From positions 30,900,867-30,964,866 of the forward strand of contig CAIIXF020000008.1 of NCBI GenBank assembly GCA_903813345.2: a DNA stretch of 64,000 nucleotides, in the 5' to 3' direction. Both the position numbers and the translations under genes were made by a program. The stretch comes from Owenia fusiformis. Lineage: Eukaryota; Annelida; Polychaeta; Sabellida; Oweniidae. The notes under the pieces are model-generated. The model worked only from the letters and a program-made list of their open reading frames with translations, was not told the origin of the DNA and ran no database searches. Below are positions 6,701 through 63,035 of this stretch, piece after piece; positions within the stretch are counted from its first letter, which is position 1, and each line of letters starts with the position of its first letter.

Positions 6701-9700
6701 TCATGGATTAGATCACGTCCTAAATATCAGTTGAGACTTGTATATTTAACTAGCAATTAGTGACAAACAATGTGCTCCGTAGACCCTGTTGTGACGTCAT
6801 GTTTGGAACTCTCACTTAACTGAAATTGGGTGTAACTTTTTGAAATTTTCACACAATGATTATCACATGTTTGTGGTTCTGTGTTCCAAGTTTGAATAAA
6901 ATCTGGTTGATATAAGTGAAGTTATAGTATTTGTCCCACTACTTATGAATCCCCCCTCGTATATGACCTCAAATTTTATTCTGGCCATTACAACGAACAG
7001 AATAAAATTTTCGGTCATATATTACGCCATAAATCTCATCTTTTTTGGTTTTTTTTTTTTTTTTAGTTTAGTGGAGATGTAAATTCAGTAGCTGGGTTGA
7101 AGGCTTGGAAAAAACCTGCTAAAGAGTGGCAGAATTTTGGCGCTATGCACTTTGACTTTTTTATGCCCCCTGACCCAACTCTTCTCGAGAGTGTTGGAAA
7201 TGTTTATGACATCATCACGTTCCATGGAGCAGATTTGATGACTGGTCCATTGTCAAGTAACAGGTATATATTTTTGAAGAAACTGATTTGAAACCTCTGA
7301 AAATCTCTCTGAAAATTTGAATTGTTGTGATTCTTGAGAGTTTAGATTACTGGATTATTGACCATAAATTTTCCATATTCAAGAAACAGAGAATCAAATT
7401 AACAAAAAAAGAAAATTTGAATCAAATTTAGATGCTTACGAAATATTCTTCATGTTCAGATAATTTACAAACAAACCAAGACTAATGACTTACAACTTTA
7501 AAACCCCAACTTTACCAATAATAGGTGACACATAATAAATCCCTCTATTATTAAGATCAGTCAACATTGGAGACATTTTCAATACAATCAAACATATCAT
7601 ATGAATAACATTTTTATTCCAGGTATTATCCATCCAGAGTCATGGATAATGAGAAAACTCTAGTCCTCCTGCTAGAAATGTTCCATCCCCGTCCATTCAT
7701 CTACATGAGATTCCAACCACAAGGCAGTAAAGCTGTAGTGAGAGCCTACAATGATAAATATGTAGATATAGTATTCAGGTAGGTCCCCTGGGGTAGCTCC
7801 ATGTATTGCAAATGTTTCATTCCCATCCATTTATCTACATGAGATTCCAACCACAAGGCAGTAAAGCTGTAGTGAGAGCCTACAATGATAAATATGTAGA
7901 TATAGTATTCAGGTAGGTCCCCTGGGGTAGCTCCATGTATTACAAATGTTTCATTCCCATCCATTTATCTACATGAGATTCCAACCACAAGGCAGTAAAG
8001 CTGTAGTGAGAGCCTACAATGATAAATATGTAGATATAGTATTCAGGTAGGTCCCCTGGGGTAGGTCCATGTATTACAAATGTTCCATCCCCGTCCATTC
8101 ATCTACATGCGATTCCAACCACAAGGCAGTAAAGCTGAAGTGAGAGCCTACAATGATAAATATGTAGATATAGTATTCAGGTAGGTCCATGTATTACAAA
8201 TGTTCCATCCCTGTCCATTCCTCTACATGAGATTCCAACCACAAGGCAGTAAAGCTGTAGTGAGAGCCTACAATGATAAATATGTAGATATAGTATTCAG
8301 GTAGGTCCCCTGGGGTAGCTCCATGTATTACAAATGTTTCATTCCCATCCATTTATCTACATGAGATTCCAACCACAAGGCAGTAAAGCTGTAGTGAGAG
8401 CCTACAATGATAAATATGTAGATATAGTATTCAGGTAGGTCCCCTGGGGTAGGTCCATGTATTACAAATGTTCCATCCCCGTCCATTCATCTACATGCGA
8501 TTCCAACCACAAGGCAGTAAAGCTGAAGTGAGAGCCTACAATGATAAATATGTAGATATAGTATTCAGGTAGGTTCATGTATTACAAATGTTCCATCCCC
8601 ATCTATTTATCTACATGTGATTCCAACCACAAGGCAGTAAAGCTGTAGTGAGAGCCTACAATGATAAATATGTAGATATAGTATTCAGGTAGGTCCCCTG
8701 GGGTAGGTCCATGTATTACAAATGTTCCATCCCCGTCCATTTATCTACATGCGATTCCAACCACAAGGCAGTAAAGCTGAAGTGAGAGCCTACAATGCTA
8801 AATATGTAGATATAGTATTCAGGTAGGTCCCCCGGGGTAGGTCCATGTATTACAAATCTTGGATAATTGGATAATCCATAAAGAGATAAAGTAGTTTCTC
8901 TATAGGCAATGGAAATGATTTTTGAAAAGTTATATCGCCATCCATTTATTGACACAAGATTCCAACCGCTAGGCTGACAAATATGTCGACATTGTGTTAA
9001 TATATTCATGAAGGATTTTCATTCATAGTACTATTGAACTCTACAGCAAAATGCTAAACTAAGATTATTAACAAACTGATACAAAATGTCATTATTTTTT
9101 AGTTTATGTATTTTCATTCAATATTTAATGAAATATATAATATAGTTTTGATTAATTTTACTTGCAGCTGTATGTTTCAAGTAGACTGCAATGAATAAAG
9201 TTTACAATAAAAGCAAAAAATGAGGCTTTGGATGTTTTTAACTTGCAATATTTACAGAAAACTCCTTGAAATCAAACTATGAGAGTAAAAATAATTGATC
9301 TGACCAAATTTTTTTGATATCCATGAGAATAATTGTACAACTACATTTATTTTAATTTGTAAATACTATTAGATAAAAAGTGGTCTTTATTTATGGAATA
9401 GCAGATTTGGTGTTTTGAGTAATCCAGCATATTGGCCCAATAAAGATTTTGCCATAATAACAAATTTTATTTTTATTTTTCAGAATTCATGCTGAATTTC
9501 AAATAAACGAGCCACCATATTATCCATTTTGGTTCACTCCTGCTCAGTTTACGGGACACGTAATCTTAGGACGTACATCCACCGAGGTTTTAGATTTCCA
9601 CATGTATGTGCCGACTGACAAAAGGCTCAATGTAGGTAGGTACTTCAAGAATTGTTAAACCTGTCTTATGTTAAGACCATTGTAACCAGCCAAAAGTGAT

Positions 9701-62684: not shown

Positions 62685-63035
62685 CTGAAATTAAACAAAT
62701 CCAATCAGTTATATAGAAATGCTATCTTTGTGACCCCCAAAGTTACACAAAAATCAGTTATATACATATGTTCATTCTTTGTTACCTCTGATATCAAACA
62801 AATTCAGTTGTATAGAAATGTTGTCTTTGTGACCCCTAATGTTACACAAAATCATTTATATACATGTCCAGTCTTTGTGAACAAATTCATTATATACAAA
62901 TGCTGCCTTTGTGACCTCTAAAGTAATACAAATTCATGTTCTGTCTTTATTACCCCAAAGTAATACAAAGTCAGTTATATATATCTGTCCAGTCTTTGTG
63001 ACCTCTGAATTTAAACAAATTCAGTTATATAGATA
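62672..63035 (-). repeat. Tandem array made from the EML exon 62684-62584 start plus acceptor
   Basis: CTTGTGACCTCTGAAATTAA spans the true exon start and its acceptor. It recurs as TCTTTGTGACCTCTGAATTT, with variants, about five more times, each followed by CAAATTCAGTTATATA. Units are 50-65 bp. The true exon begins (R)GHKDKIFV; copies keep the minus-strand AG|AGGTCACAAAG start. Confidence 0.75.

Follow-up and report, generated by a model that had tools for sequence, protein, structure and literature searches.

Tandem duplications spanning exon edges form arrays of decoy splice sites in genes of the annelid Owenia fusiformis

Introduction

Tandem duplications that carry an exon edge together with its splice signal are described from amphioxus under the name of mirages. 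They are described for globin genes (PMC3087553) and for PGBD5, with Adh and TnC mentioned (PMC3902484); both papers trace the Adh mirages to Canestro et al. 2002. According to these papers the units measure 10-72 bp in Adh3 and 150-160 bp in globins, the globin copies being 81-100% alike (PMC3087553, PMC3902484), and haplotypes differ in copy number while RT-PCR suggests normal splicing (PMC3087553). A search of a limited literature collection returned the name for amphioxus only; it listed nothing on mirages in annelids or in molluscs.

Tandem duplication is also linked to the birth of introns. Intron gain by this route is reportedly the subject of Rogers 1989, and Zhuo et al. 2007 are said to have dealt with human introns derived from tandem arrays. 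In human genes of segmental duplications, internal tandem repeats occur at exon-intron boundaries and can create new introns (PMC2812944), and cases of intron gain by tandem duplication are reported for Drosophila (PMC2809761, PMC2891723).

The structures analyzed in this study are known in kind: the Owenia arrays belong with the amphioxus mirages. Both are minisatellite-like tandem duplications in which an exon edge is copied with its splice signal, and both occur at the 5' as well as the 3' side of introns, retain many decoy AG or GT dinucleotides and bear signs of homogenization. The differences are the host, here Owenia fusiformis, and the comparison of a gene sample with random placement made here. 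The myosin of this genome has its best PDB matches in scallop and squid entries, ahead of human and insect ones, as would fit a spiralian. The human exon-edge repeats share the tandem repeats at exon edges with splice signals, but there they gave rise to new introns or to alternative splicing of recently duplicated genes, whereas nothing points to use of the arrays here. Intron gain through tandem duplication likewise involves a duplicated intragenic segment with splice signals, whereas the arrays here sit within existing introns.

Materials and Methods

The window is the whole stretch of 64,000 nucleotides that was analyzed (G000:C8:30900867-30964866); its plus strand carries a SELENON-like gene and the gene of a GMC oxidoreductase, its minus strand a portion of a long EML gene. 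Codon use for the exon model was trained on Pfam-matched dynein, myosin and SNF-transporter exons of the same genome, splice-site matrices were built from about 50 dynein sites each, and the exons of the window were then curated against the listed splice sites. This chained exon model, which has more edges, superseded a first annotation built from Pfam matches alone (293 edges without locus L019, eight of them touched; 8/57 clusters against 4.9 expected, p 0.11).

The comparison sample consisted of 55 loci (289,455 bp, 618 edges) that were selected through Pfam matches (dynein, myosin, SNF and EML families) and size, hence not at random, with repeats ignored in the choice. At L014 (2249-2275) and at L016 (1832-1894) the model mistook a decoy for an exon; the four edges of these two decoys are within the 618 and absent from the 614 used for edge counts. 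L019, a whole-exon array fetched for that array, was excluded from the 55-locus counts. L018 was retained, and its touch, a copy of an entire exon at a distance of 974 bp, is among the 13/68 clusters reported below. L048, an upstream portion of the EML gene found in the window, was retained too (two clusters, none touching).

Placement was assessed by an event test, in which each local direct-duplicate cluster is a single event and one unit is placed at random. Before counting, we removed clusters whose trinucleotide entropy did not exceed 3.5 and those with an offset below 12. Base coverage was rejected as the main test since long grown arrays inflate its background.

Results and Discussion

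Gene context of the window

The window model has 43 exons and 83 edges, every edge with AG or GT; acceptors 30862 and 56885 and donor 4227 are uncertain, and GMC exon 4 as well as the first and last exons are incompletely placed. Pfam searches identified the GMC gene (PF00732) and the EML gene (PF23409 and PF23414), whose last exon found is 22316-22216. The GMC gene (26469-34110, +) is nested in the EML intron that exons 35192-35023 and 24822-24660 flank. Exons of the SELENON-like gene gave no significant match in Pfam or PDB; the gene is presumably SELENON, a name that follows the first-pass annotation and the selenocysteine motif (SC-U-GSG). Its exon 10835-11044 has an in-frame TGA at 10937, which going by this motif is likely a selenocysteine codon.

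Another EML intron, of 7.4 kb, holds open frames at 48111-50546 (+), in which positions 50010-50546 encode an FkbM-like methyltransferase domain (PF05050, PF25276). Nearby, a coding repeat of 21 bp occupies part of an open frame (48320-48440), and one might guess that all these frames belong to a single gene. A large intron array at 58957-60987 (units of 148, 284 and 432 bp) has relatives along its entire length in other stretches compared; by its sequence it is a dispersed satellite-like repeat and not an exon-edge array.

Arrays at exon edges

The first-pass annotation listed eight places where arrays contain or abut an exon edge. Tandem Repeats Finder, reading of the DNA and self-BLAST bore out repeats at all of them, as arrays or as two-copy duplications, although two (27208-27400 and 35170-35319) are absent from the list of Tandem Repeats Finder, which gives the other six. 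The features are collected in Table 1.

Table 1. Exon-edge arrays and duplications and the inserted mobile element, in window positions
Feature	Position	Strand	Detail
SELENON-like gene exon 5 (7623-7778) donor array	7676..8857	+	9 copies
GMC exon 2 acceptor duplication	27204..27407	+	true site 27376/27377, upstream copy 27220/27221
GMC exon 7 acceptor array	31153..31482	+	7 copies, true acceptor 31454/31455
EML exon 35192-35023 acceptor duplication	35166..35319	-	two 33-bp copies, 94% alike, 121 bp apart
EML exon 37922-37814 acceptor, degenerate upstream copies	37880..38376	-	
EML exon 43267-43170 donor array, distal part	39799..41450	-	29- and 63-bp units
Mobile element inside EML 43170 array	41451..43040	.	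13-bp terminal inverted repeats
EML 43170 donor array, proximal part, contiguous with exon	43041..43195	-	
21-bp array bordering donor of EML exon 54260-54204	54030..54213	-	without decoy donor
EML exon 62684-62584 acceptor, four upstream copies	62672..63032	-	

At seven of the eight places the edge is copied along with its splice signal, and both edge types are affected: the donors of SELENON 7778 and EML 43170, and the acceptors of GMC exons 2 and 7 and of EML 35192, 37922 and 62684. The eighth place, EML 54204, merely borders its donor; this array is intronic, includes at most 10 exon letters and never repeats the donor GT.

In the SELENON array the unit comprises the last ~103 exon letters, the donor CAG/GTAGGT and ~30 intron letters. 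Its copies are spaced by 134, 134, 134, 120, 134, 134, 120 and 134 bp and form a higher-order unit of 388 bp (95% alike), so that minisatellite turnover, with homogenized copies and higher-order units, is visible in this array, the one examined for it. The two acceptors of GMC exon 2 lie 156 bp apart and are 87.5% alike over 48 bp. At GMC exon 7 the unit is the acceptor plus the first ~25 exon letters, and the true copy is the last; the exon start had been put at 31480, which was rejected as an AG inside the exon, and the corrected start at 31455 (GTATTTTGCAG/ATACCAG...) keeps the reading continuous.

The EML 43170 donor is followed in the next intron by 30 further copies of the exon tail with GT, the unit being exon tail plus the donor GCT/GTAAGT. 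The array at this donor had been given as two parts, 39826-41451 and 43040-43169; its boundaries shift to those of Table 1, and it is a single array interrupted by a mobile element. This element is 1,590 bp long, has its inverted ends (AGGGATGTCATTA) at 41451 and 43040, and has relatives across the genome (at least 62 matches). A donor copy listed at 42625 was dropped because that position falls inside the element. The element also has a tRNA-like stretch near 41830-41900 on the minus strand (GTGTAGTGGTTAGAGC...GGTTCAAATCCC), which ARAGORN does not call; this program found zero tRNA genes within the window. The four upstream decoy acceptors of EML 62684 are at 62787, 62835, 62917 and 63004, and the adjoining 65-bp array (63051-63857) has a different unit.

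Tandem arrays are hard to assemble and copy numbers may be wrong, so that collapsed or expanded reads could have produced arrays, and one two-copy case outside the window, in L014, is 100% alike over 110 bp. Against such an error, the best copy pairs within the window are 73-94% alike, hence the copies differ, and one array is interrupted by a mobile element with genome-wide relatives. We regard assembly error as very improbable.

Origin in place

Genome searches with the SELENON, EML 43170 and GMC exon 7 units, which skip very common words, listed matches at their own locus only (9, 13 and 1, respectively); these three units therefore arose in place. Comparison with 57 stretches showed no dispersed relatives for GMC exon 2 or EML 35192, 37922 and 54204, and dispersed relatives over 27% of the length of the cluster 62672-63857.

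The same structure in other genes

Edge-crossing duplications had been noted in the unrelated genes of the window, and the comparison loci extend this to genes for dyneins, myosin and transporters in other parts of the genome. Reading of the DNA revealed an acceptor with about seven copies in one dynein locus (L008), a donor with about seven copies in another (L015), a duplicated acceptor with exon start in L014, and one acceptor and one donor duplicated within one gene in L016. These loci provide the five of 13 touching clusters that were read as DNA; the other eight are script-derived. In total 13/614 edges were touched in the 55 loci, the four decoy edges being dropped, and one of the touches is the whole-exon copy of L018.

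Whole exons are repeated as well in a muscle-myosin gene. L019 (G000:C9:37985500-37995000) has twelve tandem copies of one exon (TYSGLFCVVINPYKRLPIY...), of which nine were called as 157-nt exons with identical edges and all twelve are open. The dN/dS is ~0.11, the median of the 26/66 pairs with computable dS, the rest being saturated. L019 thus probably represents mutually exclusive exons in a large cluster; among the clusters named in the excerpt of PMC3912159, the biggest has nine. L018 (G000:C9:37976500-37984000), in the same gene, has exon-sized local copies at an offset of 974 at the ANPVLEAYGNAK exon and of 441 near the P-loop exon, possibly two more clusters of exclusive exons. Set beside the myosin clusters in the available part of PMC3912159, exon-scale tandem duplication is common to both and present in the same genome (L019), whereas those clusters consist of whole exons under selection and the arrays here of edges.

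Strength and consequence of the decoys

The expectation that the duplications make arrays of decoy splice sites held: 50 decoys in six arrays retain GT or AG. Scored with the splice matrices, the true site is strictly strongest at EML 62684 (8.0, with no decoy above 5.9) and at EML 35192 (6.5 against 2.9), and it is equalled in three arrays (SELENON, 8.7 in 9/9 copies; GMC exon 7, 6.9, by two decoys; EML 43170, 0.9, by most copies). It is beaten in two, namely GMC exon 2 (3.3 against a decoy of 5.0) and EML 37922, where the copies are degenerate (best pair 77% alike). In the latter, 2.0 is outscored by 3.9, 3.9, 6.6 and 4.3 at the upstream AGs 38320, 38156, 38089 and 38056, which were picked by pattern, 38156 alone being a copy aligned to the true site. 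Site strength thus rarely marks the true site, and correct splicing must need more than strength; the choice is probably made by position and exon definition (exon length).

One alternative is that the arrays are used, their copies serving as alternative splice sites or in gene regulation through unproductive splicing. The decoys retain GT or AG and often match or exceed the true score (SELENON, GMC exon 2, EML 37922), as this alternative would have it, but young copies retain sites merely through youth. Furthermore, use of any of the 50/50 decoys in six arrays (37922 excluded; for EML 62684, whose upstream exon is beyond the window, the frame of the exon itself set the phase) would lead to a frame shift or a stop, as a random intron would. 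In amphioxus, RT-PCR suggests that mirages leave splicing undisturbed, going by the excerpt of PMC3087553. Use of the arrays is accordingly improbable in our judgment.

Chance or hot spot

The eight places among the exons of the window had been taken as more than chance, and slippage or amplification starting at splice junctions had been offered as one cause. Duplication initiated there, for instance by a transcription- or splicing-linked break, would make edges hot spots. Our analysis gives this a mixed answer for the window. By event count, an edge is spanned by 7/20 clusters where random placement predicts 1.7-1.8 (p 0.0005-0.002), by 8/20 when the margin is set to 6 letters rather than 8, and by 6/13 against 1.1 without dispersed repeats; this roughly fourfold excess persists under all settings tried (p at most 0.006) and speaks for a hot spot. 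By base coverage there is no excess: local duplicates hold 7/83 edges (8.4%) but 15.9% of the bases. For the first 45 of the other loci the figures are 15/538 edges (2.8%) against 9.6% of noncoding bases. The window was, moreover, selected post hoc, among many patterns and places, by a reader seeking striking ones, and the 498 Mb genome amounts to ~7,800 such windows, which weakens the excess as an argument for a hot spot.

In the 55 loci, 13/68 clusters span an edge against 10.7 expected (p 0.26), or against 11.9 when units may not be placed entirely within exons (p 0.40). The total splits into 12/57 against 9.5 for the first 45 loci and 1/11 against 1.3 for ten more. Eleven further settings, all with wholly-in-exon placement barred, gave p 0.09-0.39. 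The lowest p came with a best likeness of at least 85% (10/40 against 6.5, p 0.09), a result that leans towards a hot spot. The others were at least three pairs (6/20 against 3.8, p 0.15), a longer and more alike match (11/48 against 8.1, p 0.17), a unit of at most 200 (12/55 against 9.4, p 0.21), strictly tandem copies (10/42 against 7.8, p 0.23), a laxer search (14/77 against 12.0, p 0.31) and an offset of at most 400 (12/59 against 10.2, p 0.31). Dispersed repeats were removed in some settings since their presence could mask an excess; three strengths of removal gave 11/58 against 9.8 (p 0.39), 11/48 against 8.3 (p 0.19) and 8/41 against 7.0 (p 0.39), and strictly tandem copies without dispersed repeats gave 8/32 against 6.0 (p 0.24). 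In all twelve settings the ratio is slightly above one (1.1 to 1.6) and in none is it significant. Part of this slight excess may come from slower decay of exon copies than of intron copies.

In the main setting a true 1.75-fold excess would yield 13 or fewer with probability 0.05 and a twofold one with probability 0.01, the bounds from subsets being weaker. A twofold edge excess in the 55 loci is therefore unlikely, while these counts leave room for a weak bias. The exon share of the unit in edge-spanning duplications averages 0.57 and ranges from 0.14 to 0.82 (p 0.14 in a Kolmogorov-Smirnov test against a uniform distribution) in 20/25 rows, L018 and the decoys modelled as exons being dropped and the divisor, unit or match length, being chosen by hand. 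Shares this widely spread mean that break points do not cluster at the junction. Inverted local duplicates touch an edge in 0/23 and 0/11 cases; inverted ones may be mobile elements. With an edge count near random in the 55 loci and exon shares without pile-up, a start of duplication at splice junctions finds no support, and we consider edges as hot spots unlikely. What stands of the claim of more than chance is the event count in the window.

Absence of duplications inside exons

In the 55 loci, 0/68 clusters lie wholly within an annotated exon, against ~6.9 expected (p 0.0005; 53,501/289,455 bp coding), a rough measure in which the observed are whole clusters and the expected single units. 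The expectation is 4.6-6.4 without dispersed repeats (p 0.001-0.006) and 2.7 for strictly tandem copies (p 0.06). It also depends on our own exon models, which a duplication inside an exon could have broken. Selection keeping the duplications that leave the true site intact, the second cause offered, comes close to this result; the filter is a plain one, in-exon duplications being absent (0/68) and edge-crossing ones tolerated.

The preferred explanation

We give a probability of about 0.8 to the explanation that the arrays are mirages produced by frequent random tandem duplication, purged inside exons and tolerated across exon edges. We infer the mutational mechanism and the accuracy of splicing as follows. 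Local tandem duplications would arise in place through ordinary copying or recombination errors and would strike gene bodies roughly at random in a genome rich in them, so that by happenstance a duplicated segment may span an exon edge. Wholly in-exon duplications would alter the protein and be lost. Edge-crossing ones would be tolerated and retained, since the exon still has a splice signal directly attached to it, and the remaining copies would turn into intron with decoy donors or acceptors. Unequal exchange or slippage could then grow and homogenize the arrays into higher-order repeats, and splicing would disregard the decoys, presumably by exon definition through position and exon length.

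Against this explanation stand the roughly fourfold excess of the window, the 55-locus ratios of 1.1 to 1.6, the inverted local duplicates, which touch no edge but may be mobile elements, and an exon filter built on our own models. A more far-reaching idea is that some regions, the window included, truly draw duplication to junctions and that their decoys damp or tune host expression through unproductive splicing. We hold this to be a long shot; if it were true, copy number would be a heritable dial.

Taken as random duplications tolerated at exon edges, the Owenia arrays place mirages in another animal group, where at 13/614 edges they are not rare. They constitute a trap for gene prediction, the gene finder having called two decoys exons (L014, L016), and raw material for new introns and exons. 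They are also a natural experiment on how the spliceosome chooses one site among many equal ones.
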